Source of the DNA: a virus
Strand: one strand, 5' to 3'
Virus record (IMG/VR): IMGVR_UViG_3300025645_000079
Coordinates: 1 to 60,838 of that record
Length of the DNA stretch: 60,838 nucleotides
Below the pieces are notes generated by a model. That model was given only the letters and a program-made list of their open reading frames with translations, searched no databases and was not told the DNA's origin. The translations under genes and the position numbers were made by a program. The stretch's first letter is position 1. Every line of letters begins with the position of its first letter. Below are positions 3,248-59,367 of the stretch, one piece after another.

Positions 3248-3494
3248 AATGTCTACCTTTTATTAAGTTGGAGTCCCAAGTAGGTTCAATCCACTTTGGG
3301 TTTGAAACGCTCCCCTCAGACTCGAAAGGAACAGCGGGTGCCGATGACGCGAACCACCCTACATAACACCACTCAAGCAATGTCCCCAGATTGACGACTT
3401 TCCATTTTTAAAATTCCAAAAATATTTTTTCCTAAATTTTTTATATATATTAGTGGTATTATATTGACAATTATAAGTAACTAATAAATGAGAT
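3248..3494. promoter_or_regulatory. Divergent control region between left block and late operon
   Basis: This 247-bp gap lies between divergent operons. The right part (3400-3480) is very AT-rich. It includes a TTGACA at 3464-3469 and TATAAGTAACT at 3472-3482, the latter a copy of the motif that recurs across this genome. A bulged inverted repeat (CCCAAGTAG with CCACTTTGGG) lies near 3275-3302. A late promoter for the terminase genes and a promoter for the left block should both lie here. The exact -10/-35 pair is not clear: TTGACA has no good -10 at 17 bp. Confidence 0.5.
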
Positions 3495-3992
3495 ATGGCA
3501 ACTACCTCCCTCCAAACACTATCTAGCCAGTACGGTTCATTGGGCATCGCTAAACTCACATCTCAGGAAGAGGTATATGTGCAGCGCAGGACTCAGGGGC
3601 TTAATCCCAGCGCAGCAGCTAGGGCAGCTGGTTTTCGTTACCCAGCCAAAGCGGTCGCTGAGATGGCTGACAGAGATGACATAAAACTCTGCATTAGTTA
3701 CTTGAGAGAAATGCAGCGGCAGATGGCCATTAACGCGGGTGCAATAGATTTCACTAAAGACGACGCAACGGTTCTCTACCTTGAGTCCCACGCTAAAGCT
3801 GAAACAGCGGCAGAAGAAATTCGTGCTGTCGATTCACTTGTAAAACTCCACGGCCTAGCTACGCCTGAACGGGTAGAGGTGAACATTACTCGACGTGACC
3901 AACTAGAGGAGATGGACGACAAAGAGCTGTTAAAAATTACAGGCCAGGATATCCAATTGTCACCTGCTGATTACGTAGAGGTGCAAGAATAA
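3495..3992 (+). CDS. terS: Terminase small subunit (TerS)
   Basis: A 165-residue protein directly upstream of the large terminase, the classic position for the DNA-recognition subunit that marks phage DNA for packaging. The N-terminal half (LTSQEEVYVQRRTQGLNPSA, then AARAAGF) matches the helix-turn-helix 'terminase small subunit' pattern in which a short helical repeat precedes AAxxAGF. The middle forms the helical oligomerisation region and the C-terminus is acidic, suited to contact TerL. Its TAA overlaps the ATG of the next gene by one base. The identification rests on the motif and position. Confidence 0.8.
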   Translation: MATTSLQTLSSQYGSLGIAKLTSQEEVYVQRRTQGLNPSAAARAAGFRYPAKAVAEMADRDDIKLCISYLREMQRQMAINAGAIDFTKDDATVLYLESHAKAETAAEEIRAVDSLVKLHGLATPERVEVNITRRDQLEEMDDKELLKITGQDIQLSPADYVEVQE

Positions 3993-5722
3993 TGAGCATG
4001 AAAGCACAATGTCTCGAGTGCCTAAAGACACGTGAACACTTTGAGATGTACGACAAGGAGAACTGCATCGTGTGCGCCAAAGAACTTGGCATATTTGAGC
4101 AGCCTAACAACCATGAAGAAGTGGCTCGAATAGAGCAGGAGGTGATACGTGTTACGCAGGAGGAAAAAGCAGAGTTTGACAAAGAGGCAGAGGCTAAGAA
4201 GGAGTTGGCGGAGCGAGAACTTGCAAGGCGCCGACTACTTCCGTTCATTAAACGCGTAAACCCTGACTATTCACCGGGGTGGGTACATGCAGATATATGT
4301 GAGCGTCTGGAGAAGTTCGCTAGTGATGTGGAGAACAGGAAAAGTCCCCGACTCATGATCACAATGCCACCGAGACACGGAAAATCAGAGATAGGCTCGA
4401 AGACATTTCCAAGCTGGTATCTGGGGCGCAATGCGAAGCACGAGGTAATCATATGCTCGTATGCAGCAGACTTGGCGGAGGATTTTTCACGTAAATGTCG
4501 AGATTTGATTGGCGAGCCTAAGTACAAGTCGGTATTTAAAACTCGACTATCCACAGATTCGAAGTCCGTGGGTAAATGGGTGACTAATGAGGGCGGAGGT
4601 CTCACTGCGGCAGGTGTGGGTGGACCCATAACAGGTCGTGGTGCACACGTGGGCATAATCGATGACCCTGTCAAAAACAGAGAAGAAGCTGAGTCGGAAA
4701 CGGTTCGCCAAAAAGTGAAGGACTGGTATTCATCAGCCTTCTACACACGTCTTGCACCCGGGGGCGGGATATTGATAATCCAGACGCGCTGGCATGACGA
4801 TGACTTAGCGGGTCACCTACTATTTGAGCTGGCAGAAGCGGAAAAAGAAGCCAAAGAGGAGGGTAAACCTGTTTCAGACGACGTGGATAAGTGGGACTTG
4901 GTGGAATATCCAGCTATCGCCACATTTGATGAGCTGTATCGCAAAGAGGGCGAGCCACTGCACGAGGAGCGTTACCCACTTGCTGCGCTACGCCGTATAA
5001 AACGGAACATGATACCCCGAGATTGGGAGGCGCTGTACCAGCAAAAACCCGTCAGTGATGATGGTGATTATTTCACCAGAAACATGTTCAGATACTACAA
5101 ACCCGCTGAATGTCCCCCAATCGGTGACCTAAGAGTTTACGCAGCAGCGGATTTGGCTATATCGACTAAGCAAACGGCGGATTATTCGGTATTTGCCGTG
5201 GTCGGTATCGACAGGCAGCAGAACATATGGCTGCTCGACATAGTGCGTGGCCGATGGAACGCTTTGGGCATCATCGAACGCATGTTTGAGATACAAGTGA
5301 AGTATGGGCCAGAGCTATTCGGCATAGAAACGGGTCAGATTGAACTTACTCTTGAGCCATTCATACAAAAAGCAGAGCAGGAGAAGGGTATATCACTGCG
5401 ATACGAGAAGCTGAGAACGCGCGGCGTGGACAAAGGCGTTCGTGCTAGGCCACTTCAGGGTCGTATGGAGCAGAATAAGGTCTACTTCCCAACACTCGAG
5501 TCGACACCTTGGATGTCATCACTCCAAAATGAGCTGCTGAAGTTCCCCCTAGGCAAAAACGATGACCAAGTGGATGCTCTAGCGTGGATTGGACAAATGA
5601 TTATGTTATTTGGCGTGAGAAACGAAAAGAAAATTGTTTCCCCTAAGTCGTTTAAGGATAAATTGTCACAATTTGGAGGGGGCAAGAAGGGTAAGCGCCA
5701 TAAATCGGGCATGTCTGCATAA
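3992..5722 (+). CDS. terL: Terminase large subunit (TerL), with N-terminal zinc ribbon
   Basis: This is the packaging motor. It uses ATP to pump DNA through the portal and cuts the concatemer. The ATPase shows Walker A MPPRHGKS at residues 125-132 and Walker B VGIIDD at 220-225. The C-terminal RNase H-like nuclease carries YAAADLAIS, GIETGQ and NDDQVDAL acidic motifs. At 576 residues it is longer than many because about 80 residues precede the ATPase. These include C7-x2-C10 and C25-x2-C28, a likely zinc ribbon, then a charged helix. Translation is coupled to TerS. The function is secure; the zinc ribbon's role is unknown. Confidence 0.95.
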   Translation: MSMKAQCLECLKTREHFEMYDKENCIVCAKELGIFEQPNNHEEVARIEQEVIRVTQEEKAEFDKEAEAKKELAERELARRRLLPFIKRVNPDYSPGWVHADICERLEKFASDVENRKSPRLMITMPPRHGKSEIGSKTFPSWYLGRNAKHEVIICSYAADLAEDFSRKCRDLIGEPKYKSVFKTRLSTDSKSVGKWVTNEGGGLTAAGVGGPITGRGAHVGIIDDPVKNREEAESETVRQKVKDWYSSAFYTRLAPGGGILIIQTRWHDDDLAGHLLFELAEAEKEAKEEGKPVSDDVDKWDLVEYPAIATFDELYRKEGEPLHEERYPLAALRRIKRNMIPRDWEALYQQKPVSDDGDYFTRNMFRYYKPAECPPIGDLRVYAAADLAISTKQTADYSVFAVVGIDRQQNIWLLDIVRGRWNALGIIERMFEIQVKYGPELFGIETGQIELTLEPFIQKAEQEKGISLRYEKLRTRGVDKGVRARPLQGRMEQNKVYFPTLESTPWMSSLQNELLKFPLGKNDDQVDALAWIGQMIMLFGVRNEKKIVSPKSFKDKLSQFGGGKKGKRHKSGMSA

Positions 5723-5835
5723 ATAGTACACTATCTTAACAGTAACTGATATTATGCGCATAAATTCTACTGATATTATTAGTGGCGTATTGCGACACCC
5801 CAAAAAAGCACCGCCAAATTGGAGCAAATAGCTAG
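5723..5835. promoter_or_regulatory. Portal leader with recurrent motif and direct repeats
   Basis: This 113-bp gap holds AGTAACTGAT at 5741-5750 (recurrent motif), an exact 11-bp direct repeat ACTGATATTAT at 5745-5755 and 5769-5779, and the palindrome TTATGCGCATAA at 5752-5763. It probably contains a promoter or operator for the head genes. TTGGAGCAA gives the portal binding site at its right end. Confidence 0.5.
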
Positions 5836-7962
5836 ATGCCAGAATCGCTTAAAAAATCCGATGGTGCTACATCACAAGTAGCGGCAGATAACCATCATCG
5901 TTTCCGCGAAGCATTAGAAACAGGCCACGCACTCTATACCGAGCGTGCTAAAAGAAATGACAAGTTTTACGCGGGTGAGCAGTGGGATAAAGCGGACAAA
6001 GAGCGCTTAGAGCGTGAAGGACGTCCGGCACTTACGTTGAATCTAATACTTTCTACGGTTAACGCCATGATTGGCGAGCAGCTTGACAGAAAAGTCGACG
6101 CACACTTTACCCCGTTGGACACTGGTACAGAAGCTACAGCTTTTGCCCTTAACAAGATTGCGCGTGTGATCCTAAATGAAAACAACTATGACGACATAGA
6201 AGAAAACGTGTTTTCGGATGGCTTGATTGGCGGCAGGGGTTATTTCGACGTTCGCATGAGTTTCCTCAAAAACATTCAGGGCAAAGTGTGCATATCAATG
6301 GAAGACCCAATCGATGTAATAATCGACGGTGAAGCCAAAGAAATGGACCCTAAAACGTGGAACGAAGTATTTATATCCCGCTGGATGACTCCTGATGAAA
6401 TAGGGGCTACGTACGGCTGGGATAAAGTAGAGAAAGTTCAGGTAATGGCCCAAGATACGGGCAGTGGACACGACGACAACTTTGATTTTGGTGATCGTAC
6501 TTTTGGAGGCGATTCACCTGCGACGCGAGACAATTCAGCGCGTACTCAGCTAAACAGAGTCCGAGTAGTCGAAAGACAATTCTTTAAAGTGGCAGAGCAG
6601 TGGTTTTTTGTCGACCCGATAACGGGCGCATTACGTGCGGTTCCATATGGTGCGGATAAAGAGTCTCGCGAAGCATTTGCTCAACAGTACGGTTTTGAGG
6701 TAATTAAGCGTAAGGGTCGCCGTGTTCGTATGGTCGTGTCTTGCGATGACGTATTGCTCAAAGACGACTGGTCGATATACCGCTCATTTACAATTGTACC
6801 GTTTTTCCCTTATTTTCGTCGTGGCAATCCATTTTCAGCGGTAGACAACCTTATTGACCCGCAGAACCTGCTTAACAAGACAAGCTCGCAGGAGTTGCAC
6901 ATTGTTAATACGACGGCCAACTCAGGCTGGGTGATACAGGAAGACTCACTGGTTGACATGGACGCGGAAGATTTAGAGGAGCGGGGCGCCGAAACTGGCC
7001 TTGTGCTTCAGTACAAACGCGGCTATGAGGCACCAGAAAAGATTACACCTAACTCTATACCTACGGGCATAGACAGAATCAGCCAAAAAGCGGCTAGTAC
7101 CATCCGTGAGATTTCATCGGTTAACGCATCGATGCTTGGAACGGCTAGAGCAGACCAATCGGGTAGAGCGCAAGAGGCTGCTACCATGCGTGGACAGGTG
7201 CAAGTATCTGTGGTGCTAAGTAACCTAAAACGTTGCCGGCGAACTGTGCTTGAGAAAATACTTGAGTTAGTCCAGGACTTTTATACTGAGACCCGGTACT
7301 TCAACATCATCGGTGATGACATCATGATGGCGCAGGGCAGCAACGAGCAGGTTGGTGTAAATGTACCGCAGGACGATGGCAACATATTGAACGACATCAC
7401 CGTGGGTGACTACGGCACAGAAGTAGGGTATCGACCTTCCGGTGGAAGTTTAGCCGACAAAGAAATGGACGAAGCTATTCGTCTGCGCGAGATGGGCGTT
7501 GCGATACCAGATCACGTTATAGTCCAGTATTCGAGACTGACTAAGCGTATGGAACTGGCTAAGTTCCTTAAAGATTCACAAGGGTTTGGCGAGCAGAGTG
7601 AAGAGCAAGCGGCCCTCGAAGAACTCCAGATGGAACACCAAATAGGCATGTTGCAGAAGGAGCTTGAGAAGGCCGATGCGGATATTGAACTGGCACGCGC
7701 TAGTGCGCTTGAGAAACAGATGAACGCTGAGTCGTTGGAAGACTTTAACAAAGCTGACATCGAAACTCAGAAGCTAGAAGTTCAACGTGCATTAAAGGAA
7801 AAAGAGCTATCGCTGCGTATTGCACTGGCAGCCCGTGGACACCAGAACGCCAACACTATGAATGTCCAACGCTTACAAACCTCTGTCGCTATGAAGTCTA
7901 TGGATATGGCTATAGCTGACAAGAAAGAAAAACCCCCCCAACCAAAGAGTAAAGATAAATGA
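5836..7962 (+). CDS. Portal protein, P22 type
   Basis: A 708-residue protein forms the dodecameric ring through which DNA enters and leaves the head. The N-terminal pattern (YxAxRAKRNDKFYAGEQW, then ALTLNLILSTVNAMIGEQ) is typical of P22-like podovirus portals, and the length matches them. The segment near residue 380-440 (NASMLGTARADQSGRAQEA) corresponds to the conserved portal region with SG..I...Q. The C-terminus is a long charged helix, expected for the barrel. It follows TerL and precedes the scaffold gene, overlapping it by four bases (ATGA). Confidence 0.92.
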   Translation: MPESLKKSDGATSQVAADNHHRFREALETGHALYTERAKRNDKFYAGEQWDKADKERLEREGRPALTLNLILSTVNAMIGEQLDRKVDAHFTPLDTGTEATAFALNKIARVILNENNYDDIEENVFSDGLIGGRGYFDVRMSFLKNIQGKVCISMEDPIDVIIDGEAKEMDPKTWNEVFISRWMTPDEIGATYGWDKVEKVQVMAQDTGSGHDDNFDFGDRTFGGDSPATRDNSARTQLNRVRVVERQFFKVAEQWFFVDPITGALRAVPYGADKESREAFAQQYGFEVIKRKGRRVRMVVSCDDVLLKDDWSIYRSFTIVPFFPYFRRGNPFSAVDNLIDPQNLLNKTSSQELHIVNTTANSGWVIQEDSLVDMDAEDLEERGAETGLVLQYKRGYEAPEKITPNSIPTGIDRISQKAASTIREISSVNASMLGTARADQSGRAQEAATMRGQVQVSVVLSNLKRCRRTVLEKILELVQDFYTETRYFNIIGDDIMMAQGSNEQVGVNVPQDDGNILNDITVGDYGTEVGYRPSGGSLADKEMDEAIRLREMGVAIPDHVIVQYSRLTKRMELAKFLKDSQGFGEQSEEQAALEELQMEHQIGMLQKELEKADADIELARASALEKQMNAESLEDFNKADIETQKLEVQRALKEKELSLRIALAARGHQNANTMNVQRLQTSVAMKSMDMAIADKKEKPPQPKSKDK

Positions 7963-8990
7963 GTGACCCCGATAACATTTACGTAGATTCTATCCCCGTA
8001 ACGAACAACGAGTTCGGGGGCGATGCTACGGCCGAGTCTAGCGAAGCAGCCGAAACAATAGTTGAAGACCGTGGTGACGATTTTGTACCGAGCGAGGAAG
8101 GAACCGATGATACCGATACAAATACTGATCCAAGTGATAGTGCTGGTAGTGATACTGATACTGATACTGACACTGATAGTGAGGTCGATGGACAGGGGAC
8201 GGAGGAAACTGACGAGCCTGACGAAGCTGATGATCCTGACGAGGAGGAGGCCGAGGAAAAACCGAAACCAGTCAAAGGCCAAGTCCCAAGAGACCGACTG
8301 AATAAAGAAATCGAGAAGCGTAAAACGCTTGAGCGGCAGATTAGGGATCTACAAAACAAAGCGCCGGAGCAAGCCTCTGAGCAATATTCTCGTGAGCAGA
8401 CTCCTGCTGCCAAACCTTTTACTAAAGAACAATTTGCAGCCATGCAGAATGCAATGCTCGATGGCGAGACTGAAAAAGGTTTCGAGATATTTGCGGAGAT
8501 GATGTCTAACCAGTCTTCACAAGTTCGCGCCGATGCTATTGCGGAAACTGATATTCGTGTTCGAAGTGAACTTAACATTGAACGCGAGAACAACAGTCTT
8601 AGCCAAGAGGCGCAGCTCCAAGGTGAGCGATTCCCTGAGTTAGTGGCTGGCGGTGATTTTGCGGATGACGGACTAATTGACGAAGTGGTCGAGACCCGAA
8701 ACATATACATTGACCGAGGCGTGGGTGCTGCGGAAGCACTTCGCAAAGCGGTTAGGATTGTTTCTTCGGAGCATGGACTTGTCGACCGCAAATCGGTAGC
8801 GAAAGCACCCTCTAAAAAACGAGTGGACGTGGCTGGAAAAATTGCACTTGCCGAGAAAGAGCAGGGCAAGCTAGGTGGTGGTTCAACACAGAAACCCGCA
8901 CCAGTGGTTGACCTGACTAAAATCAGTGACTCCCAGTTCTCAAGACTAAGCGAAGACGCTAAGGCTCGCGCCAGAGGCGATTACCTGTAA
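7959..8990 (+). CDS. Putative scaffolding protein
   Basis: This 343-residue protein lies between portal and major capsid, where scaffold genes are normally found. Residues 1-100 are extremely acidic, with a DTDTDTDTD stretch encoded by GATACT-type repeats around 8120-8190. They are followed by a basic coiled coil (RDRLNKEIEKRKTLERQIRDL) and a helical C-terminal part ending with charged helices, fitting assembly-core proteins that bind coat and leave before DNA entry. No sequence-specific motif proves it, so the call rests on position and composition. ATGA overlap couples it to the portal. Confidence 0.75.
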   Translation: MSDPDNIYVDSIPVTNNEFGGDATAESSEAAETIVEDRGDDFVPSEEGTDDTDTNTDPSDSAGSDTDTDTDTDSEVDGQGTEETDEPDEADDPDEEEAEEKPKPVKGQVPRDRLNKEIEKRKTLERQIRDLQNKAPEQASEQYSREQTPAAKPFTKEQFAAMQNAMLDGETEKGFEIFAEMMSNQSSQVRADAIAETDIRVRSELNIERENNSLSQEAQLQGERFPELVAGGDFADDGLIDEVVETRNIYIDRGVGAAEALRKAVRIVSSEHGLVDRKSVAKAPSKKRVDVAGKIALAEKEQGKLGGGSTQKPAPVVDLTKISDSQFSRLSEDAKARARGDYL

Positions 8991-9196
8991 TCTAATATAT
9001 AAGTAACTGTTGATTTATCCCAGCAGTTACTTATAATACACGTACGTCAAGGTGGTGCCTTGTAAAAACAAACTGCTTCCCACTGTAAGGCTAACGGTGC
9101 TTTTCGCAAGACCCACGTAACGGGACGACATCACTCGGATTAATTTAATAGTCCCTGGAGTCGCTTCGTACTTTGGGACACAAAAAGGAAAGCACA
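8991..9196 (+). promoter_or_regulatory. Structured leader of the capsid gene
   Basis: A 206-bp gap with no gene. A perfect 12-bp inverted repeat TATAAGTAACTG/CAGTTACTTATA (8998-9009 and 9024-9035) contains two copies of the recurrent motif facing each other. Smaller hairpins follow near 9050-9062, 9079-9097 and 9151-9179 (GTCCC/GGGAC with an inner AGT/ACT pair), the last just before the capsid binding site. Likely roles are partial termination after the scaffold gene, and a promoter or stabilising 5' leader for the highly expressed capsid mRNA. Confidence 0.5.
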
Positions 9197-15654: not shown

Positions 15655-15663
15655 TGTTATAAT
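15655..15663 (+). promoter_or_regulatory. Extended -10 promoter before the giant ejection gene
   Basis: TGTTATAAT is a perfect extended -10 (TGn followed by TATAAT at 15658-15663), ending 33 bases before the ATG at 15697. The same TGTTATAAT lies 30 bases before the endolysin ATG. No good -35 is seen, as is usual for extended -10 promoters. Confidence 0.6.
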
Positions 15664-15695
15664 CCGATATAAGTAACTACTATATCGGATTTTTT
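15661..15695 (+). terminator. Intrinsic terminator overlapping a promoter and motif copy
   Basis: AATCCGATATA (15661-15671) and TATATCGGATT (15681-15691) form a perfect 11-bp stem followed by T residues, a textbook rho-independent terminator. The loop contains AGTAACT, the recurrent motif, and the left arm begins inside the TATAAT. A promoter, an operator-like motif and a terminator are thus packed in 45 bp directly before the start codon. Confidence 0.75.
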
Positions 15696-23766: not shown

Positions 23767-23770
23767 TAGC

Positions 23771-23809
23771 AGTACACTGTTATAATGCCGTATTAGCTAA
23801 CTAATACGG
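23771..23809 (+). promoter_or_regulatory. Extended -10 promoter plus hairpin before the endolysin
   Basis: AGTACACTGTTATAAT at 23771-23786 merges the recurrent motif with a perfect extended -10. A perfect 9-bp hairpin CCGTATTAG/CTAATACGG (23788-23809, loop CTAA) follows at once, then the ATG at 23817. The arrangement copies that before the giant gene at 15697, which suggests a repeated control cassette. Confidence 0.6.
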
Positions 23810-23816
23810 TGTTTCG

Positions 23817-24191
23817 ATGTCTGAAAAATCAATGCAGAACTTTCCGGCGGAGGAGCTTCGCTGTAAATGCGCTCAGTGTAGTCTGGACGTCGAGCACGGT
23901 TGTGACACGGAGGCATTGTACGCGCTGCAACGCGTCCGAGTCCGTTTTGACAAGCCTATGTTTTTGACCAGTGCATTTAGGTGCGCGGATCACCCAGTTG
24001 AGGCTTCTAAAACAAATCCTGGCACGCACAACCAAGGTATAGCATTTGATGTCGCGGTTCCTTGGGGCGCAGACCGCATGGAGCTTGTCCGTCTGGCGAT
24101 GGAAGAGGGATTTAAGGGCTTCGGCTTTGCGGGAACTTTCTTACACATCGATTTTCGTTCTACTGGTCTAACGTCTTGGACGTACTCGTGA
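23817..24191 (+). CDS. Endolysin, peptidase M15A family
   Basis: A 124-residue zinc peptidase that cleaves peptidoglycan stem peptides, most likely to lyse the host. The M15A motifs are visible: SAFRC with the following H, then GTHNQGIAFDV giving the metal-binding His and Asp (SxHxxGxAxD type), and FLHIDF giving the third ligand. There is no signal peptide, so export needs a holin. It has its own promoter-like element. The nearest membrane proteins that could serve as holin lie 12 kb away at 36023-36493. A role as a virion-associated hydrolase is also possible. Confidence 0.88.
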   Translation: MSEKSMQNFPAEELRCKCAQCSLDVEHGCDTEALYALQRVRVRFDKPMFLTSAFRCADHPVEASKTNPGTHNQGIAFDVAVPWGADRMELVRLAMEEGFKGFGFAGTFLHIDFRSTGLTSWTYS

Positions 24192-35894: not shown

Positions 35895-36022
35895 TAAACT
35901 ACTAAAACGTTTATTATTACCGCGTTTTCATTTAAAATAGTAGTAACTGATAAAGCGCGGTAGTAGTAATGTAGCTAATGGGTACATGAACTAGCAGAGC
36001 AACTTTAAAGCGGAGAAGGGCA
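35895..36022. promoter_or_regulatory. Control gap before the membrane/lysis cluster
   Basis: ATAGTAGTAACTGATA at 35937-35952 is a near-perfect copy of the recurrent motif. It lies in the loop of an inverted repeat ACCGCG (35919-35924) / CGCGGT (35956-35961). A promoter or operator for the small membrane genes is likely. CGGAGAAGGG at the right end is the binding site of the gene at 36023. Confidence 0.5.
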
Positions 36023-42180: not shown

Positions 42181-42326
42181 TGTGTCCCACTCCTGACCCA
42201 CCTATTTTTACTGGTTTACACAGAATTATACTGAAAAGTACTGTTTGACCCACTTTGACCCTCAAATATACTTATGGGTGTTTTTATTAGTACGACTGTT
42301 ACTGTATGATTTGTAACGATTTTATT

Positions 42327-42378
42327 TGGTATCCCCACCTGGAATCGAACCAAGATCTAAGCCTTAGGAGGGCTTACG
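42327..42378 (-). other. attP: attP core: 3' half of a tRNA-Arg(CCT) gene
   Basis: Read leftward, 42375-42359 is an anticodon arm AAGCC-CTCCTAA-GGCTT with anticodon CCT. A T arm with TTCGATT follows, then the acceptor strand and the CCA end (TGG at 42327-42329). No 5' half is present, so it is not a working tRNA gene here. A phage that integrates into the host tRNA-Arg(CCT) gene would carry exactly this piece to restore the tRNA. It lies 120-170 bp upstream of the integrase and between the arm repeats. Confidence 0.88.
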
Positions 42379-42500
42379 GGTACATTTTAAGTGATTGTTT
42401 TAAAAGGGATTTGTTGTAGGCCCAAATGCTTTGACCCACTGTTGACCCACCTAGTAAAAATCTGTAGGATCGAGATCCCCTTTTTAACAGTAGATAAGTC

Positions 42501-43583
42501 ATGGCCAGAATAAGAAAGCGCGGCGAGACGTACACGGTTGAAATTCGCAAGGGTAAATACAAGTATTCGCCGCTTGTGCGGTCATTCAAAAAGAAGACTG
42601 TAGCGGAATCTTGGGCTAAAAAAGTTGAGTTGGCAATGGACTCGGGCGAATTTATCGATCTTCGCACAGCAAAAGGGTATTTGCTAGCAGATTTAATCGA
42701 CCGCTACGTGGATGAAATCGTCCCGACAAAAGCGGCCTCCACAATAGTAAGCGACACGATGCGCTTAACCCGTATAAAAACAGAGGTGGGCAAGGTTACG
42801 CTGGCGGCTGCCGACCTGCACTATTTCTACGCCTATTTCACTGGCATGTTAAAGAACAAGGTGCAGCGCAGCAAAGAGGGCAAGCTGTGGTCAACAGGTT
42901 ACGTGCAGAAAAACATCAAAGACTTGATTAATGTGTTCCGAGTGTCCGAACGGTTATGGGGTATTACCCTGCCAGATGGAAATGCCCCGCGCGAGGCCAT
43001 GCACCGAATGTCAGAAGCAGGATTGTTAGCGGGGGCAAATGTCGAACGGACATCTCGTTTGAGGGATGGCGAGTACGAAGCAATTCGCCGGTGCAAGTGC
43101 GAGGGTGGCCAAGTATTTCACCAGATGGCGGTGCTGCTGTTCATCGAAACTGGTATGAGGCGATCGGAGTTGTTCGGCATGAAGAAAAGCCTTATCGATT
43201 ACAAGAACAGGGTCTACAAGCTGGACAAGCAAAAGACGGATAAGACCAGAACAAGGCAGAGAACGGGTCGAGATGTGCCACTCACTATTAGAGCGGCGGC
43301 TATCCTAAAGATTGTGTCGCGCATGAGTGATGATGGCGACAAATTGTGGCCATGGTCACATGTTGATACGATCAACCAAGGCACTAAATACTTGTTCAAG
43401 CGGCTAGGCATAAAAGATATTAGCCCACATGACTTGCGGCACGAGTTTGGCAGTTACCACTCAGACAGTGGCATGGATATTCGTTTGGTTGGCGCGGCCA
43501 TGGGACATGCAGACCTCAAATCAACTAAGAGGTACACGCATCCCGATGCCCGTAAGATTGCTAATATGTTTACGCGGCGTTAA
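42501..43583 (+). CDS. int: Tyrosine recombinase, phage integrase
   Basis: A 360-residue integrase that would recombine attP with attB in the host tRNA-Arg gene. The N-terminal arm-binding region is basic (MARIRKRGETYTVEIRKGKY). Residues about 50-160 form the core-binding domain. The catalytic domain shows Arg in GMRRSE (about 219), H310-x-x-R313 in SPHDLRH, H336 in MGHADL and the nucleophile Y345 in KRYTHPD. All expected catalytic residues are present. The gene is next to attP and converges with the excisionase-like gene, overlapping it by 14 bp. Confidence 0.93.
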   Translation: MARIRKRGETYTVEIRKGKYKYSPLVRSFKKKTVAESWAKKVELAMDSGEFIDLRTAKGYLLADLIDRYVDEIVPTKAASTIVSDTMRLTRIKTEVGKVTLAAADLHYFYAYFTGMLKNKVQRSKEGKLWSTGYVQKNIKDLINVFRVSERLWGITLPDGNAPREAMHRMSEAGLLAGANVERTSRLRDGEYEAIRRCKCEGGQVFHQMAVLLFIETGMRRSELFGMKKSLIDYKNRVYKLDKQKTDKTRTRQRTGRDVPLTIRAAAILKIVSRMSDDGDKLWPWSHVDTINQGTKYLFKRLGIKDISPHDLRHEFGSYHSDSGMDIRLVGAAMGHADLKSTKRYTHPDARKIANMFTRR

Positions 43584-43800
43584 AAACAACCCTCGCATTT
43601 GACAGGTAAACGGCTACATCATACGCGAGTGCGACCCATTTACCTCCTATTTTTGCCACGGGGATCTGAAACGTTTCCCGTGATATTGCCTGCTGTATTG
43701 TAGTTTTTTTAACACCCAGTACCTCAGCTAAATTTTCCGTAGATAATACGGCACCATACTTCTCTGCTAGCGCATCTGCGGTAAATTTTACTTCTTGCAT
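43570..43800 (-). CDS. Excisionase/AlpA-like HTH protein (76 aa)
   Basis: A small winged-helix DNA-binding protein. A helix-turn-helix (LSTENLAEVLGVKKTTIQQA, residues about 19-38) is followed by a wing (PVAKIGGKWVALAYDVAVYL). This is the layout of MerR/AlpA-type excisionases and of PrtN-like activators. Its 3' end overlaps the integrase 3' end, and it is the last gene of the leftward operon, three bases after dUTPase. Expression with the lytic replication operon would suit excision. It could instead be a transcription factor. Confidence 0.65.
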   Translation of the reverse strand: MQEVKFTADALAEKYGAVLSTENLAEVLGVKKTTIQQAISRETFQIPVAKIGGKWVALAYDVAVYLSNARVVFNAA

Positions 43801-44302: not shown

Positions 44303-44318
44303 ATAGTAGTTACTGTTA
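44303..44318. promoter_or_regulatory. Recurrent motif copy upstream of dUTPase
   Basis: ATAGTAGTTACTGTTA differs by one base from the 16-bp form found at 59323-59338. It fills most of the short gap between the DUF3310 gene and dut, 14 bases before the dut start. Confidence 0.5.
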
Positions 44319-44785: not shown

Positions 44786-45403
44786 CTACTTCTTAAATAC
44801 CGCACCTTTTGATTCGGGGGGAATAACAGATATTATCGCGTCGATGTCGTCATTAACGTCGACTAAGTAATTTCTACCTCCGAACCAATGCGGCTCTTGC
44901 AGCTCCCATCCGTCCTCTGACAGATGTACACTTCCATAAACCGAGGGTTTCCCTGCTCTTTTATAAATTACGGTGTCTTCCTCACCGATACTTCGCTCTG
45001 GGTCCATCACTAAGAGCGATCCTCTTTTAAAAATATGGTTCGAGTAGTCAACTCTTACTAGGTAACATCCGCAATGCGGAACTAGTGATTTTACTGCTAC
45101 AAAATCATTCTTTAATGGTTTGCCAGAGAGTGTCTGTTTGACCTCTAGCGTAACTGTACGTAAATCTTGCGAAGGTATTTCACCTTCTATACCAAACTCT
45201 GTTAAAGGTGTTCGCGTTAGTTGCGCAAACTTACTGATAAATTGCTCGTTTAAGGGAATTGCACCCCTCAAGTATTGGCTATATGCCGATTGATTCATGC
45301 CCATCGCTGCGGCAGCATTTGCTTGACTCGACTGCGATGTTTCTTTGTGCGAGTTCCATACGCTGTTTACTTTGCTTAAAACTTCATTACTAAAATTTGC
45401 CAT
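44786..45403 (-). CDS. CI/LexA-like phage repressor (205 aa)
   Basis: The N-terminal HTH (SSQANAAAAMGMNQSAYSQY, residues about 25-50) has the XRE pattern of Cro/CI proteins. The C-terminal half resembles the S24 (LexA-like) dimerisation domain: 'YLVRVDYSNHIFKRGSLLVM' aligns with '..V.GDSM.P...GD.l.V'. The usual GDSM is DYSN, keeping a Ser, and the catalytic Lys is not obvious, so self-cleavage is uncertain. Start 45403 (MANFSN) follows CGGGGTG. It most likely maintains lysogeny. It is transcribed in the same direction as the replication genes, not divergently. Confidence 0.75.
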   Translation of the reverse strand: MANFSNEVLSKVNSVWNSHKETSQSSQANAAAAMGMNQSAYSQYLRGAIPLNEQFISKFAQLTRTPLTEFGIEGEIPSQDLRTVTLEVKQTLSGKPLKNDFVAVKSLVPHCGCYLVRVDYSNHIFKRGSLLVMDPERSIGEEDTVIYKRAGKPSVYGSVHLSEDGWELQEPHWFGGRNYLVDVNDDIDAIISVIPPESKGAVFKK

Positions 45404-45423: not shown

Positions 45424-45608
45424 AATCTTCTTCCGTTGAAGATTCCTGTTTGAGGAATATATCAGTAAAAACTAACCGTTACTATGTATTTTAAGCGTTT
45501 AGCGTGTATTTACCTGTAGATAACTGTTTTATAGGGTGTTTAAAGGCTTTTTTGTCTACTCAAACTAGCCCACTTTGTGACAGTATAACAAACTAGGAAT
45601 TATTCCTA
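45424..45608. promoter_or_regulatory. Repressor promoter/operator region with AGGAAT half-sites
   Basis: A 208-bp gap. AATCTTC/GAAGATT (45424-45430 and 45438-45444) is a perfect 7-bp inverted repeat. ATTCCT at 45442-45447 faces AGGAAT at 45453-45458, and the palindrome TAGGAAT-T-ATTCCTA at 45594-45608 has the same half-sites in the opposite arrangement. A motif copy (TAACCGTTACTAT, 45473-45485) lies between. AGGAAT-based dyads are candidate operators for the repressor's own control; the right palindrome may also end the upstream nuclease transcript. Confidence 0.5.
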
Positions 45609-46890: not shown

Positions 46891-46961
46891 TAACAGTGAC
46901 AAGCCGTTACGAGGTACTATATTAGCATTACTGCTAACATAAGATAGTAGTTCACTGTTAT
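46891..46961. promoter_or_regulatory. Promoter/motif region upstream of the 46811 gene
   Basis: ATAGTAGTTCACTGTTAT at 46944-46961 is a motif variant with one inserted base. A leftward ACTGTTATGG lies at 46891-46900. As the gene at 46811 needs its own promoter after the terminator-flanked gap, these are likely its control elements. Confidence 0.45.
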
Positions 46962-52677: not shown

Positions 52678-52680
52678 ACG

Positions 52681-52884
52681 TTATACCCTCTTGTTTATCT
52701 GGTCACGTGTATGGTCGTGCTCGCAATCTTTGTCACAAAATAATTGGTGAGTCTCCACGGGGGAGAGGCAGAAATAGCAAACACCTTTGGGTTGCTTGTT
52801 AAATTTTTTACTTTTTGTTCGGCTAACGGCGGCTGCTACCGTTAGTTCGATCAGGTCTTGCGCGTCATCGGCAATATCAGCCAT
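52681..52884 (-). CDS. TraR/DksA-like zinc-finger protein (67 aa)
   Basis: 'MADIADDAQDLIELTVAAAV' resembles the N-terminal helix of TraR/DksA-type phage proteins. 'CYFCLSPVETHQLFCDKDCE' provides four cysteines (CxxC and CxxxC) for zinc. TraR-like proteins bind the RNA polymerase secondary channel and can redirect transcription. The DksA zinc-finger spacing is not exact, so a generic zinc-ribbon role is also possible. A leftward extended -10 merged with the recurrent motif lies about 33 bases upstream (52917-52936). Confidence 0.6.
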   Translation of the reverse strand: MADIADDAQDLIELTVAAAVSRTKSKKFNKQPKGVCYFCLSPVETHQLFCDKDCEHDHTRDQINKRV

Positions 52885-52916: not shown

Positions 52917-52936
52917 ACTATAACAGTTACTACTAT
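52917..52936 (-). promoter_or_regulatory. Leftward extended -10 merged with recurrent motif
   Basis: Read leftward the site is ATAGTAGTAACTGTTATAGT. It contains the full motif and an extended -10-like TGTTATAGT ending 33 bases before the ATG at 52884. That is the same distance as at 15697 (33) and close to 23817 (30). It begins at the stop codon of the small gene 52937-53104. Confidence 0.65.
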
Positions 52937-54015: not shown

Positions 54016-54025
54016 GGGTGTTTTC

Positions 54026-54178
54026 CTAAAAGTTAATTCGTGCTTGGATATCTACGCACGCTTTTAAAGCTTGCTTCGATGTGGTTTTGTACTCGCCGCG
54101 GTACACCTCAGTGCCATCTATTTCTAGGATTGGCAGGTAACCAAGGCTGGGCACATGGCGGATAATAATGTCGGTCAT
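54026..54178 (-). CDS. Small hypothetical protein (50 aa)
   Basis: Start 54178 (MTDIIIRHVPSLGYLPILEI) overlaps the TGA of the upstream gene as ATGA and follows CGGAGCAAAGATT. A short beta-rich start is followed by a helix (TTSKQALKACVDIQARINF). Resembles small phage accessory proteins. No function is visible. Confidence 0.6.
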   Translation of the reverse strand: MTDIIIRHVPSLGYLPILEIDGTEVYRGEYKTTSKQALKACVDIQARINF

Positions 54179-54543: not shown

Positions 54544-54698
54544 AGATTGTCCTCTTTTAGTTGCTTTATTTTTTGTGTGTGTTTTTGAAGCTGGGCGCAC
54601 AACATCTCATTTAGTTTGCCGTACATACCAAGGCGATCCTCTAGCCACTTTATTCTCCCTTCCATCCATTTTATTCTTTTGTCACTTACTGTACTCAC
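54540..54698 (-). CDS. Small coiled-coil protein (52 aa) overlapping the polymerase end
   Basis: A GTG at 54698 sits eight bases after a near-perfect AAGGAGG, inside the last codons of the polymerase gene (17-base overlap). It runs 52 codons to a TGA overlapping the next ATG. The product is a continuous amphipathic helix (RIKWMEGRIKWLEDRLGMYG, then KLNEMLCAQLQKHTQKIKQL). An upstream in-frame ATG is only two bases from the binding site and was not chosen. The double overlap makes translation likely. It may be a small partner protein of the polymerase. Confidence 0.65.
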   Translation of the reverse strand: MSTVSDKRIKWMEGRIKWLEDRLGMYGKLNEMLCAQLQKHTQKIKQLKEDNL

Positions 54699-56751
54699 GG
54701 GCATAACCTCCTTCATTCGCTAGTGGTATGTCTTCGCCCCATGGCGGCGGCTTAGACATGCAGGACTGCATCTCTTGGAAGGCATAATCTGCATCTGTGA
54801 ACTTAACAGCTGCTAAAATTTCATCGTGAACGCTGCCCATCACCCAACCGTAACCTTCGCGTTGGAGTGTATTTTCTACTTGTACAATCTGCTCGGCCAT
54901 CACATCGCGAGCTGTGGCTTGTGCTAAATTCTCGATGAGTAAGCCATGCCACATACCTTTGGGTACTGCGTTGCCGAAACGGTCTGTCTTGTCTGAGTCG
55001 AAAATGGCACGCTGCTGATACCCATTTTGTGTCTCGGAGCCTTCATACCTGGCATTGGGGTATTTTAGGAATCGACCACTTGGCAGCTCGATGGAATCTT
55101 TGCGGGCTATAAACGTACCGTCTGGCCCAAATGCCAACTCGCCACCCATTACTATGATCCCCTCTACGTTGTTGGACAGGAATCTCCACATCTTGACGAC
55201 CATCGGATGCTTCTGCTCATATGCGTGCTTTACTTTTTTACAGTAGTCATCGTCTTTGAACATCGGGTCCATACCCAGTGCGCCGCTGGCTAGATAGTCT
55301 TGGAAGCCAGACCAGCCCATAGCGAAACCTAGACCTAATCCCATTACTTTACCCATCTGGCGCTCGTCTTTGTCAGCAGATTTAGTCAATGCTCTGCCAA
55401 ACAAAGGGGACGCAACATCGCAGTAATAGTCATACTTGAGAGGGTCTTTTGAGTCCATATGGTCAGTGGAAGCCATCTGGTCTAAGATGTCCTGCTGCCC
55501 ACAAATCCACATGTTGACGCGGACTTCAATATTCGATAAATCGCATACTGCAATCTGATGACCTGGAGGGGCTAACATTGATAAACGATGCTTTCCGCCT
55601 CGGGTGTTGTTCTGCTGGTTAACTTTCTGACCGCCTGACCATCGGCCAGTCTGTTTGGCGCCAAAATAGTTAAGGAAGAAAGGCATATCTGCCTGTTCGA
55701 AACCTTCGTCGTGGAACTTATCTGCGACATCTATCATTCTTGTTGCCCTAGACGCAGATATGGTCGATTTCACCGTGTCCCTTGCTTTGAATATCGCAGC
55801 AAGCTGAGGGTGTTTAATCTGGGCTTTTATGTATGGAGGGTCGTCCTTGCCAAGGGCGGGCGCTAGTAGCCCTGTTGTGGGTGATACTTTTAGCGGCACC
55901 TCCATTCCTAATTTCTCCAGTAATTCAGCGTACTGGGGATTGGATGAGAATGTTTTATCAGTACACGTAAGTCCATACATGTCAGCCACTTCTTTTGCTG
56001 CGGCTAATACCCACTTCTTTTTCAGATCCTCATCCGCAAGCACCTCCTCCAACAGCTCGCGCGCAATCATGAACTGGGGCTCTACTGCTCCGCGTGCATT
56101 TATGTTCATCAATACTAGTTCGTGGGACAGCCTTAGACTGACAATGTCAGGCACGTACTTCAGGAATAGATTGCGACATAAATTCACATCCTGAATGCAA
56201 TATTTTTCGAGTGCTTGGTGCTGCTCGGATGTGATGTATGGGTATGAAATACCGTCTACATCGGCTAGCTCTTCGCCACCTTTGTTCAATCTCTCATCAT
56301 TAGGCCACATATCTAAACATGCAGCTTTCAATGACGATGAACGGTCACTGTGGAGTAGGGTGCGCATCATCTTGGTACAGAAATATGCATCCCAATTTAG
56401 GCGCTGCGTCCAGTTGGATATAGATGCATCAAACTGGACGTTGTGAGCGACAACACCTATACGTTCACCCTGTTCTCGGCGTGCTTTGTACTCGTCGATT
56501 AGTGCTTGGACTTCGTCAGCCTCGTGCACATACTCAACCGGCGACATGTCCTCCGCTACGCCTAAGCCGGTGACATGGAACCGGCCTTGGGGGTCTAAAA
56601 TGTACTCAGCGTACGTCTTGGATTTTAGCGAAAAGCTTTTTGTCCCATTGTTAGCTTTTGATTTGTAGAACGTCTCGTAATCTAAGAAGACTAGGGTGTC
56701 GAGGTTGAACATCTTCTTGATATAAGCAATTGTCGTCTCGTTTAGGTTCAT
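54682..56751 (-). CDS. polA: DNA polymerase, family A, with 3'-5' exonuclease (689 aa)
   Basis: The replicative polymerase. The N-terminal exonuclease has DEDD-type motifs: FLDYETF, AHNVQFD and YCIQDVNLCRNLF. Polymerase motif A is AVCDLSNIEVRV (about residue 400), motif B ERQMGKVMGLGLGFAMG (about 465) and motif C GSVHDEIL (about 642). In motif B the residue equivalent to E. coli Phe762 is Leu, and Tyr766 is Phe. Start 56751 directly follows the stop of the upstream gene and is chosen over an upstream in-frame ATG. No N-terminal 5' nuclease domain is present, as usual in phage enzymes. Confidence 0.95.
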   Translation of the reverse strand: MNLNETTIAYIKKMFNLDTLVFLDYETFYKSKANNGTKSFSLKSKTYAEYILDPQGRFHVTGLGVAEDMSPVEYVHEADEVQALIDEYKARREQGERIGVVAHNVQFDASISNWTQRLNWDAYFCTKMMRTLLHSDRSSSLKAACLDMWPNDERLNKGGEELADVDGISYPYITSEQHQALEKYCIQDVNLCRNLFLKYVPDIVSLRLSHELVLMNINARGAVEPQFMIARELLEEVLADEDLKKKWVLAAAKEVADMYGLTCTDKTFSSNPQYAELLEKLGMEVPLKVSPTTGLLAPALGKDDPPYIKAQIKHPQLAAIFKARDTVKSTISASRATRMIDVADKFHDEGFEQADMPFFLNYFGAKQTGRWSGGQKVNQQNNTRGGKHRLSMLAPPGHQIAVCDLSNIEVRVNMWICGQQDILDQMASTDHMDSKDPLKYDYYCDVASPLFGRALTKSADKDERQMGKVMGLGLGFAMGWSGFQDYLASGALGMDPMFKDDDYCKKVKHAYEQKHPMVVKMWRFLSNNVEGIIVMGGELAFGPDGTFIARKDSIELPSGRFLKYPNARYEGSETQNGYQQRAIFDSDKTDRFGNAVPKGMWHGLLIENLAQATARDVMAEQIVQVENTLQREGYGWVMGSVHDEILAAVKFTDADYAFQEMQSCMSKPPPWGEDIPLANEGGYAREYSK

Positions 56752-56752
56752 T

Positions 56753-57346
56753 TTATGCTGCCAATATTTGATCAATGGATACGCCGTGGTACTCGACGAA
56801 ATTATCATTTGGTACAAACTGTTCTAGCTCTGGAGATTGCGCCAACAAATCTTTGAGTGACGTGAATCCACCTAGATAGGTGAGAAGCTTGTCTTTTTGA
56901 GTAGTCGAAAAGTCTTCTAACGCTCGCTCTCTGCCAACGATGTTGACTATCTTGTTGTACAAGGCTCCGCTAAATACAGGGTTGATGAACTTATCAGCGC
57001 CGTGCTTCATGATGTCGGGCATACATCTTGGCGTGTGCAATGAGAATAGAAACGGCTCGTCACTAAACTCATCTATCGTTATTGCCTGAAACACCGGGAG
57101 CAGACCGGGCTTTGCGTGTGGGTCGTCATGGAATGTGAATTCCATTTTTAAGACATCAATGATTTGGTTAGTCGCTTCTTCGCGGTCTAACTCTAATAAG
57201 ATGAACTCTTTTATATTGTTTTCGGTTACTACTGCTTGTGCGATGGTATCTCTCATTAGCTGTGACATACGCGTGCCTTTTTTGAGTGTTTTCACGGGGT
57301 TCTCCTTCATGTATTGTTGAATTCTTTCTTCATGGTAGTGGGTCAT
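56753..57346 (-). CDS. Hypothetical protein (197 aa), upstream of polymerase
   Basis: Not recognised. Soluble and acidic, with a basic N-terminus (MTHYHEERIQQYMKENPVKT) and 'LKMEFTFHDDPHAKPGLLPV' in the middle. It is probably co-translated with the polymerase (stop two bases from the ATG), so a polymerase accessory role is possible. A recurrent-motif copy lies at 57361-57373, just upstream of its start. Confidence 0.65.
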   Translation of the reverse strand: MTHYHEERIQQYMKENPVKTLKKGTRMSQLMRDTIAQAVVTENNIKEFILLELDREEATNQIIDVLKMEFTFHDDPHAKPGLLPVFQAITIDEFSDEPFLFSLHTPRCMPDIMKHGADKFINPVFSGALYNKIVNIVGRERALEDFSTTQKDKLLTYLGGFTSLKDLLAQSPELEQFVPNDNFVEYHGVSIDQILAA

Positions 57347-57360
57347 AATAATCTCTTTAT

Positions 57361-57373
57361 TAGTAACTGTTAT
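57361..57373. promoter_or_regulatory. Recurrent motif copy upstream of the 57346 gene
   Basis: TAGTAACTGTTAT lies in the 29-bp gap between genes. On the leftward strand the sequence reads ATAACAGTTACTA, the inverse orientation of the copy at 52917. It is 15 bases before the downstream ATG, which is too near for a usual promoter; an operator or stop-type site fits better. Confidence 0.45.
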
Positions 57374-57375
57374 TT

Positions 57376-57729
57376 CTAGGCGGCAGAACGCAAGGCAAGC
57401 AGCGCTGCATAGTGTCGTTCTGCTCTTGCGCTTATTTTTAACCTACTGAGGATGCACTGCATTGCTTTAGGGCTAATATCGTAATGATTACCTATTTCTG
57501 CCACCGTTTTCGTTATGAGCATTTTCCGTATTAAAGGTTTTTCGATTAACCAGTCGCGCTGGTGTTTTCTCGGTGCGTGCTGAACTATGTTGGCTCGCTT
57601 TAATCGCTGGTACATGGTTGACGCCGTAACGTCTTCTGCATCTGCCAGCATTTTTACAGTACAGCCTTGGGCCATCATGTATATCAGGCGTTCTTTTATC
57701 TTTGGTAGCATAGGTTTAGGTGATGCCAT
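57376..57729 (-). CDS. HTH DNA-binding protein, transcription-factor-like (117 aa)
   Basis: Two helix-turn-helix-like segments are seen: 'CTVKMLADAEDVTASTMYQR' (residues about 23-42) and 'KTVAEIGNHYDISPKAMQCI' (about 73-92). Basic overall (RKHQRDW). Start 57729 follows GGAGACAAGTA and overlaps the upstream stop. A transcription regulator or a resolvase-like HTH protein is likely. Target unknown. Confidence 0.65.
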   Translation of the reverse strand: MASPKPMLPKIKERLIYMMAQGCTVKMLADAEDVTASTMYQRLKRANIVQHAPRKHQRDWLIEKPLIRKMLITKTVAEIGNHYDISPKAMQCILSRLKISARAERHYAALLALRSAA

Positions 57730-58192
57730 TACTTGTCTCCTGTGTTTGGGTTGGGTCGAATGCCCCTAGATTGGTTAATACATCGAATGCTTCGGACTCC
57801 CTCCATACTTTGATGAACGGTGTGCCAATCCAGCCATAGTTAACCAGGTGTTTTTTGTTGAAATTTTTTCCTAGAGCTGCGTGTTTTTCGTTTAGTATGT
57901 CAACCAGCTCTGATTGCAGGCATTCTTTGTCGACTTGAATTTCTTCAGCCTTCATGTATTTCTGATTATTACTGTCTATACCTAGAACAGCGATTAAAAC
58001 CGACCATTTGTGTCGTAGTGTCGATAGCCGCGTAGCGGTTAGTATTGATGGGTCTGTTACTCTGTGTGTGCGTAAATCAATCATCCTGCAACCATCGCTG
58101 CCAGTTACAAAACCAACTGCTGAGTTCTTTAGTGCTAGCTTTGCTTCGAGGTACACATTTTTTCTGGGGTTATATTTTTTTGTCCTTTTCAC
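57716..58192 (-). CDS. Hypothetical basic protein (158 aa)
   Basis: Starts at GTG after AAGGAGCAAGA. N-terminus is basic (MKRTKKYNPRKNVYLEAKLA), with no known domain. 'DILNEKHAALGKNFNKKHLV' and 'GWIGTPFIKVWRESEAFDVL' are visible but not matched. It overlaps the HTH gene by 14 bases, so the two are co-translated and may act together. Confidence 0.6.
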   Translation of the reverse strand: MKRTKKYNPRKNVYLEAKLALKNSAVGFVTGSDGCRMIDLRTHRVTDPSILTATRLSTLRHKWSVLIAVLGIDSNNQKYMKAEEIQVDKECLQSELVDILNEKHAALGKNFNKKHLVNYGWIGTPFIKVWRESEAFDVLTNLGAFDPTQTQETSNGIT

Positions 58193-58228
58193 TCTTGCTC
58201 CTTTGGCGCATTGTCTAAAATCTTTTGG

Positions 58229-58426
58229 TTAGTCACCACTCTTGCTCCTATTGTGCTGGTGTCTTACATCTCTAGCTTTAAGGCCATTTCTGTACAGCAT
58301 ATTTGCAAATTGTTGGTAATCTAAACCCATGTTTTTAGCCATCTGGCGGATAGGGACTTTGGATATCATGGCTTCGATGGCCAATGGCTCTAGCTGTTTG
58401 AAGTGGTAGTAACCGTATTTCTTCAT
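58229..58426 (-). CDS. Small HTH protein (65 aa)
   Basis: Start 58426 (MKKYGYYHFKQLEPLAIEAM) is chosen because GGAGTGCAACAA precedes it and it overlaps the stop of the zinc-ribbon gene (ATGA). Residues about 20-45 (MISKVPIRQMAKNMGLDYQQ) form a helix-turn-helix like those in the neighbouring genes at 57376 and 58590. Basic C-terminus. A DNA-binding regulator is likely. Confidence 0.6.
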   Translation of the reverse strand: MKKYGYYHFKQLEPLAIEAMISKVPIRQMAKNMGLDYQQFANMLYRNGLKARDVRHQHNRSKSGD

Positions 58427-58587
58427 TTGTTGCACTCCAGACAAGTTGAGGTCGTAAAAATGCCGTCTTCATCACAGTCATAATCTAGGGCTAACTCTTC
58501 CCCGCAATCTTCGCATTCAGGTGGTTGCGTATAGAATGGACTGCGAGGGTCAGTTGAATCAGCGGGCATTCCCGCAGGATAGTTCAT
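58423..58587 (-). CDS. Small zinc-ribbon protein (54 aa)
   Basis: The ATG at 58587 opens 54 codons starting MNYPAGMPADSTDPRSPFYT. The end has CEDC and CLEC pairs 22 residues apart, a zinc ribbon. The stop overlaps the next ATG. This order (zinc ribbon, then HTH) is repeated in the operon. Family not named; the metal site is inferred from the cysteines. Confidence 0.65.
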   Translation of the reverse strand: MNYPAGMPADSTDPRSPFYTQPPECEDCGEELALDYDCDEDGIFTTSTCLECNK

Positions 58588-58589
58588 GG

Positions 58590-58778
58590 CTAATCTATCT
58601 CAGCTAGGTAACCATGGCATCGCAACATCTTGGTGATGCGCTCTCTCTTACACTGGAACTCAATAGCTAAACGCTCTACTGTCCATAACTCTTTGCTGAA
58701 GAGCTTGATGCAGCGTGCTTTATCTTGGTATTCCCATTGATTGCGTTTGTTTGTGGTGTTGTTGAAATACATGGCCAT
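58590..58778 (-). CDS. Small HTH-like protein (62 aa)
   Basis: Start 58778 follows TTGGAGGAGTGTA. 'LWTVERLAIEFQCKRERITK' is helix-turn-helix-like, similar to the two other small HTH proteins at 57376 and 58229, suggesting a paralogous set. Two cysteines are present but no clear zinc motif. DNA binding is inferred. Confidence 0.6.
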   Translation of the reverse strand: MAMYFNNTTNKRNQWEYQDKARCIKLFSKELWTVERLAIEFQCKRERITKMLRCHGYLAEID

Positions 58779-58924
58779 TACACTCCTCCAAATATGGCTA
58801 CGGCTAAGACGAAGAACATCGTCAGTGCGGCGGCTGCTAACAGCTCACCTAGCCAGAACGAGGGCGGTTTAGCCTTTCGTTTTATGGGGCGGTACTGCAT
58901 GTCTTCATCCATTTGTTTCTTCAT
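58778..58924 (-). CDS. Small single-pass membrane protein (48 aa)
   Basis: Start 58924 (MKKQMDEDMQYRPIKRKAKP) overlaps the upstream TGA as ATGA. Residues about 24-46 (FWLGELLAAAALTMFFVLAV) form one membrane helix with a basic segment on its N-terminal side. Together with the 33-residue protein at 59188 it forms a pair of tiny early membrane proteins, perhaps for superinfection exclusion or host modification. Function unknown. Confidence 0.6.
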   Translation of the reverse strand: MKKQMDEDMQYRPIKRKAKPPSFWLGELLAAAALTMFFVLAVAIFGGV

Positions 58925-59184
58925 GCTACTTCCAGCCAATCTATTGCCATTGCTAATTTGGCGTACATTAATGCTACTTCGTGTGAAATGGGGGGCCACA
59001 GGGACGCAACAAGCTGTTCGTCTTTAATCAGTAGCAAGTTGCCTATTCTATCCAATGCTGAATTTTCTATCTCGTGGAAGGATATCGATATGCCAGAACT
59101 GCCTTCTGAGTTCACACGTAGCCAGAAGCACGACTCGCCTCTGTCTAGCTGCATTTCCGTAAGTTTTGCTTTCGTTTGTGTCAT
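58921..59184 (-). CDS. Hypothetical protein (87 aa)
   Basis: Not recognised. Soluble; 'KLTEMQLDRGESCFWLRVNS' and 'ISISFHEIENSALDRIGNLL' form a beta-alpha pattern. It starts three bases after the stop of the 33-residue gene and overlaps the next gene by four bases. It belongs to the tight early operon, with no specific role seen. Confidence 0.55.
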   Translation of the reverse strand: MTQTKAKLTEMQLDRGESCFWLRVNSEGSSGISISFHEIENSALDRIGNLLLIKDEQLVASLWPPISHEVALMYAKLAMAIDWLEVA

Positions 59185-59187
59185 TGT

Positions 59188-59289
59188 TTACATCCCTATT
59201 AAGATTATGGCGGTTACCGCGCAGATATATGCGATGACTACTGCGGCGTTTAGCGGGTCGAAGTCGCTGCGTCTTCTACGTTTACTCAT
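59188..59289 (-). CDS. Tiny membrane protein (33 aa)
   Basis: ATG at 59289 after TAGGTAAAACAC opens 33 codons: a basic start (MSKRRRRSDFDPLNA) followed by a single hydrophobic segment (AVVIAYICAVTAIILIG). It fills the gap between the 87-residue gene and the inverted motif pair at 59323-59367. The size, signal-anchor shape and good spacing support it, but short frames of this kind can arise by chance. Confidence 0.5.
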   Translation of the reverse strand: MSKRRRRSDFDPLNAAVVIAYICAVTAIILIGM

Positions 59290-59322
59290 GTGTTTTACCT
59301 AGTAGTTGACGAGAGGGTATAT

Positions 59323-59367
59323 ATAGTAGTAACTGTTAATACTATAGTCAATAACAGTTACTACTAT
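59323..59367. promoter_or_regulatory. Perfect inverted pair of the recurrent motif
   Basis: ATAGTAGTAACTGTTA (59323-59338) and its exact inverse TAACAGTTACTACTAT (59352-59367) are separated by 13 bp. It is the only place where two full copies face each other as a 16-bp perfect dyad, suited to binding of a dimeric protein or to two divergent promoter-like elements. Confidence 0.7.

Follow-up and report, generated by a model that had tools for sequence, protein, structure and literature searches.

Across the 60,838-bp virus record analysed here (the window), a short DNA motif recurs in the gaps between genes, and the question it raises is which protein reads it and what follows from its being read. 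The initial annotation described the motif as asymmetric, and proposed that it marks either a phage-specific promoter class or dispersed repressor 'stoperators'. The window encodes TerL, a P22-type portal and a Phage_capsid_3 capsid, together with a polymerase, a primase and a helicase, and is a temperate P22-portal podovirus, the temperate lifestyle being indicated by a tyrosine integrase gene (42501–43583, plus strand). Its closest named phages, KPP25, phiA008 and AP1, are only distant kin. Beside the integrase gene lies a tRNA-like remnant (42330–42395; 21.5 bits against the Rfam tRNA family, less than its cut-off), the anticodon loop of which resembles that of tRNA-Arg CCT; this remnant is the probable attP.

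When the copies in the window are compared together, the motif proves to be a pseudo-palindrome, TANN-AGT-W-ACT-NNTA, rather than an asymmetric element, and strand has little meaning for it. The core, AGTWACT, is self-reverse-complementary except at its central base, and nearly all of the sites carry both this symmetric core and the outer TA on either side. The copies reported earlier are present within a few bases of where they had been placed, and their abundance withstands comparison with shuffled sequence: allowing up to three mismatches, TAGTAGTAACTGTTA has 15 matches against 2.2 ± 1.6 expected, a count reached in none of 100 dinucleotide shuffles, while the exact generalised pattern TANNAGTWACTNNTA occurs nine times against 0.05 expected. 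The proposed concentration in gaps is equally clear, as 11 of the 21 AGTWACT cores fall in noncoding DNA, which makes up only 3,427 bp (5.6%) of the window (binomial p = 4e-9). With a symmetric position weight matrix the top 11 sites are all intergenic (16.6–21.5 bits, leave-one-out), and those ranked next fall within genes.

The two half-sites are usually separated by a single base (N1), and exact-pattern counts by centre are nine for N1, two for N2 and one for N3. In total, 11 N1, two N2 and one N3 sites are distributed over 56 kb at many promoters. Two copies listed earlier, at 23771 and 46944, are real sites with a 2-bp centre (AGT-NN-ACT), that at 45473 is present only in degenerate form, and one site with a 3-bp centre, at 42285, had escaped the list. 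An alternative centre, TAAC-N-GTTA, came out top when the window was searched blindly for palindromes; it was rejected on the symmetric core of syntenic sites in relatives, AGT-N3-ACT, and on sites ending in GATA or AATA, which do not contain it. The SOS box, CTGT-N8-ACAG, was also considered, and was dropped because its half-sites are in the opposite order. A literature search, with subscription journals mostly outside its coverage, found no description of the motif, nor of phage operators in which the half-site spacing has shifted.

Placement of the sites has been compared with sigma70-type promoters predicted by consensus only. At two promoters, inverted pairs of sites cover both hexamers. 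Upstream of the capsid gene, the N1 site at 8998–9012 overlaps the -35 TTGATT (9010–9015) and its inverted partner at 9021–9035 overlaps the -10 TATAAT (9032–9037), the two lying 23 bp apart with a 16-bp gap between cores. On a minus-strand promoter of the right arm, the N1 site at 59324–59338 overlaps the -10 TACTAT (59323–59328) and its inverted partner, 59352–59366, abuts the -35 TTGACT (59346–59351), with a 21-bp gap; paired operators in the window are thus 23–28 bp apart over -35 and -10. Three sites overlap the -10: that at 5737–5751 (N1), before the portal gene, overlaps the extended -10 TGATATTAT (-10 at 5750–5755) and has a weak N2 half-match beside it at 5721–5736; that at 23767–23782, with the 2-bp centre TAGCAGTACACTGTTA, merges into the extended -10 TGTTATAAT before the gene at 23817; and that at 52921–52935 (N1) merges with the extended -10 TGTTATAGT before the minus-strand gene at 52884. 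The N1 site at 44304–44318 overlaps the -35 TTAACA before the minus-strand dUTPase gene.

Start-site positions are occupied by three further N1 sites: 3472–3486, before TerS (3495); 15668–15682, just 3′ of TGTTATAAT and within the upper stretch of a leader hairpin that precedes the gene for a 2689-residue protein; and 35938–35952, which adjoins the -10 TAAAAT (35933–35938) before the small gene at 36022. The operator-like site with the 3-bp centre TATTAGTACGACTGTTA (42285–42301) lies 3′ of TTGACC-N16-TATACT (42245–42272), ahead of the integrase gene, and a degenerate AGT-N4-ACT site (45460–45477) falls in the spacer of the predicted repressor promoter (-35 at 45479–45484, -10 at 45456–45461). 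At only two sites of the window was no evident promoter found: that at 57358–57372 (N1), just before the minus-strand gene starting at 57346, and that at 46945–46960, with the 2-bp centre TAGTAGTTCACTGTTA. Of three copies said to merge with an extended -10, two do so; at the third, TGTTATAAT at 15655 only adjoins the copy at 15668. In six of seven genomes the sites exceed random noncoding positions in sigma70 score; in the relative G405 there was no excess over random noncoding DNA (p = 0.21).

The position of the sites relative to the predicted -10 therefore varies, between the -35, the spacer, the -10 and +1, and this favours operators over a promoter element. A phage-specific element, read by a phage activator or sigma-like factor that turns on middle or late genes, would account for sites before genes and for the several that merge with an extended -10, but there is no fixed distance or orientation to the transcription start, the motif is palindromic, and good sigma70 hexamers are already there. 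Moreover, relatives have the site within the -35/-10 spacer of the promoter of their repressor, and it is also found beside orphan repressor genes, as described below. Among the subset of window genes scanned, there was neither a phage RNA polymerase nor a clear homologue of a sigma factor. Promoters are indeed marked, as the initial annotation had supposed, but ordinary sigma70 -35 and -10 elements with operators superimposed at variable positions do not amount to a promoter class of the phage's own, and a dedicated promoter element is highly unlikely.

The proposed reader of the sites is a 205-residue repressor of the lambda CI type, encoded on the minus strand at 44786–45403. It has a helix-turn-helix (HTH) and an S24-like C-terminal domain, which, with pseudo-palindromic operators lying over promoters, are features of a lambda CI-like repressor/operator system. 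The match to Pfam HTH_3/HTH_31 is weak, just below the cut-off; a profile search retrieved lambda repressor chains (E 3.4e-4), and the best PDB match to the predicted structure in Foldseek is lambda repressor 3bdn (E 7e-7), with LexA and UmuD lower, the model being a monomer of moderate confidence (pLDDT 78, pTM 0.52). By inspection of an alignment with the lambda C-terminal domain and of the family alignment, the serine and lysine of the self-cleavage dyad are not conserved at the lambda positions. The S24/LexA-like half of the protein thus appears to have no catalytic serine and lysine, which makes RecA-stimulated self-cleavage improbable as the route of induction.

Further evidence comes from relatives, which were recruited by capsid alignment and read as full or prophage regions: Bermanella sp. 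(with the close G004 and G006), G005, G405, Shewanella gaetbuli, Oceanisphaera litoralis (with G406) and G008. When viral contigs were scanned with the polymerase or the repressor alone, no relatives were found, and a 15-mer DNA scan of the same kind of contigs gave single copies only. TerL, portal and capsid of the related phages are 51–79% identical to those of the window, the gene order is largely common to all those read, and each has a homologue of the repressor, 25–46% identical. In every one of these six further lineages AGT-N3-ACT is enriched in noncoding DNA, with 18 of 30 copies noncoding in the Shewanella region against 0.9 expected. The nearer relatives have 6–10 exact copies of TANNAGT-N3-ACTNNTA, compared with 0.07–0.17 in shuffles, and Oceanisphaera, G406 and G008 have 9–11 copies of CAGT-N3-ACTG, compared with about one; the exact N1 form occurs 0–1 times. 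Strong enrichment of any spacing was not seen in KPP25, phiA008, AP1 or some 60 other distant capsid relatives.

Placement is conserved together with the motif. In the relatives, too, -35 and -10 of the capsid promoter are covered by a pair of sites, of which the second is degenerate in some cases. At the gene at 52681, TAGTAGTAACTGTTA in the window is matched by TAGTAGTAATACTGTTA at the equivalent Shewanella site, and at the gene at 23817 TAGCAGTACACTGTTA in the window stands against TAGTAGTAACACTGCTA, with its 3-bp centre, in G005. Paired sites stand 23 bp apart at the capsid promoter of the window and mostly 24–25 bp apart in relatives. The separation of their cores, 16 bp, is thus nearly constant, and it is the operators themselves that are shorter in the window, by 2 bp each.

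What ties these sites to the repressor is, above all, the repressor's own promoter. In Bermanella, G005 and G405 this has the form TTGACA-[operator in 17-bp spacer]-TAAATT, TACTAT or TACATT, with an N3-type operator in the spacer in the Bermanella group and in both G005 and G405, whereas the window has only its degenerate N4 site there. Since a protein bound in the spacer would exclude RNA polymerase, the operator there is read as repressing, and it is the strongest evidence, from sequence, that the sites belong to the repressor and mediate repression. Just upstream of the Oceanisphaera repressor gene the site was not found. Of the phage and orphan regions searched with a profile of the repressor, all 13 proved to contain the gene; the same profile found nothing in the distant capsid relatives, including KPP25, phiA008 and AP1, most of these loci being partial genomes.

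Among 395 genomes of the order to which the Shewanella host belongs, three full-length chromosomal repressor homologues were found, in G146 (L310:3420–4025), G137 (L318:229–822) and G209 (L314:5228–5888), in surroundings devoid of other homologues of window genes. In G146 and G137, where the neighbours are ordinary chromosomal genes, an exact N3 site precedes the repressor start by about 35 bp, even though the whole of G146 (4.4 Mb) has only two such sites and G137 (5.4 Mb) only three; just upstream of the G209 orphan no site was found. These orphans are possibly domesticated immunity genes, and may confer immunity on their hosts. The orphans also bear on the idea that the sites serve another protein, such as a host regulator or a partition or replication protein, and merely travel with the repressor. 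The window does encode small HTH proteins besides the repressor, among them an excisionase-like one (43570–43800), but host chromosomes have few sites outside the prophage, and orphan repressors with no other phage genes keep one adjacent, which makes another reader extremely improbable.

Repressor binding as the function of the sites is supported, then, by the co-occurrence of the two and by the orphan repressors that keep a site. The sites themselves, their enrichment, their overlap with promoters, their conservation in relatives, their co-occurrence with the repressor and the direction of their change in spacing are read directly from the sequence, and the motif very probably serves as operator for the lambda-CI-type repressor of the phage itself, dispersed over promoters in a set contracted from an N3 ancestor. 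We infer that the repressor binds the sites, that it does so as a dimer, and that binding represses. A dimer would read TANNAGT-W-ACTNNTA with one HTH per half-site, the TANNAGTAACTNNTA duplex being the expected target of the 45403 repressor. In the prophage state, dimers would occupy about 14 dispersed sites and bar the host's sigma70 RNA polymerase from promoters of the replication arm, the structural genes and the integrase gene, two of them through inverted pairs over -35 and -10. The half-sites would ancestrally have been 3 bp apart, nearly every operator here having since lost two central base pairs.

As a class, dispersed palindromic lambda-type operators in a temperate podovirus belong to a known kind of system, the spacing shift being the part of interest. 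In phage P1, C1 represses lytic genes from 22 operators dispersed over the genome (PMC8546580), and the likeness lies in the many repressor-type sites at many promoters genome-wide; the P1 operator, ATTGCTCTAATAAATTT, is asymmetric and 17 bp long, whereas the site of the window is palindromic and its repressor has the lambda CI fold. Mycobacteriophage L5 has more than twenty repressor sites, at promoters and in short intergenic gaps, with a motif that drifts among related phages; its stoperators are asymmetric 13-mers oriented with transcription and bound by a monomeric repressor with two DNA-binding domains (PMC9283540, PMC6550527). The spread of sites through the genome, at promoters and in short gaps, and the difference in motif between relatives recall L5. 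In contrast, the window sites are symmetric and paired on promoters, and its relatives differ in half-site spacing, not in sequence.

Stoperators of the L5 type, at which elongating RNA polymerase would be halted between genes, are for this reason very improbable here. Dispersal, intergenic location and the two sites with no obvious promoter (57358 and 46945) speak for them, but the sites are palindromes mostly on promoters, have no common orientation, as the inverted pairs 8998/9021 and 59324/59352 illustrate, and go with a lambda-like repressor. The part of the stoperator proposal that stands is binding by the repressor. With lambda CI the system shares a homologous HTH, the overall fold and pseudo-palindromic operators. 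Lambda has six operators at two loci, whereas the window has about 14, single or paired, over the whole genome, along with the apparent absence of the self-cleavage residues. By analogy, the sites would work as dispersed operators, as in P1 or L5, while being palindromic and lambda-like.

The direction of the spacing change has been taken from a FastTree phylogeny of TerL, portal and capsid, in which the window and L015, the capsid promoter of which also bears an N1 site, are nested within the N3 phages (support 0.99–1.0). Given this nesting, parsimony makes N3 the ancestral spacing, and about 11 operators would each have lost 2 bp in the lineage of the window. No additional N1-type phage together with its repressor came out of a helicase-based scan. 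The three window operators that were not contracted in this way, two N2 and one N3, look like transition stages.

The repressor comparison, which rests on one N1 sequence, offers candidates for the compensating change. The recognition helix is almost unchanged (NQSAYSQYLR versus NQSAFSQYLR), which fits the unchanged half-site. Just past the HTH, all nine other repressors share T53 and D54, in place of which the window has E and Q; the two positions correspond in the alignment to lambda residues 59–60, beside lambda Asn58, in a loop that is turned towards the operator backbone and the dimer side. This location makes the change from IPLN-TD-F to IPLN-EQ-F a candidate for compensation, as is a longer linker in the window repressor acting with it. 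How a repressor and a dozen operators can switch specificity jointly has long been asked in the study of phage immunity. We consider it somewhat more probable than the converse that the whole set of about 11 sites shortened together, from 3 bp to 1 bp at the centre, with half-site and recognition helix nearly constant, creating a new immunity group through geometry and not sequence. If true, such a network-wide change of geometry would be a rare case. The comparison provides a clean before-and-after pair, with the same half-sites, nearly the same helix, different spacing, a known direction and candidate residues, as well as a map of operators in temperate podoviruses of a group that has received little study.

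Two other features of the noncoding DNA were observed. Directly after the -10 (TATAATGCC...GGC type), a strong hairpin begins, and it ends a few bases before an ATG that has no clear Shine-Dalgarno sequence (window 15661–15692 and 23784–23813; L156:2780–2830; L152:9262–9305). It recurs with different stems in Shewanella, Bermanella, G005 and G405, with z of about -4 to -5 where folded, and looks like a conserved 5′ leader element. Finally, six GTCGGGCATTA-type repeats are clustered at 60368–60753, of seven in the window against 1.6 expected; this cluster is iteron-like and possibly a replication origin.
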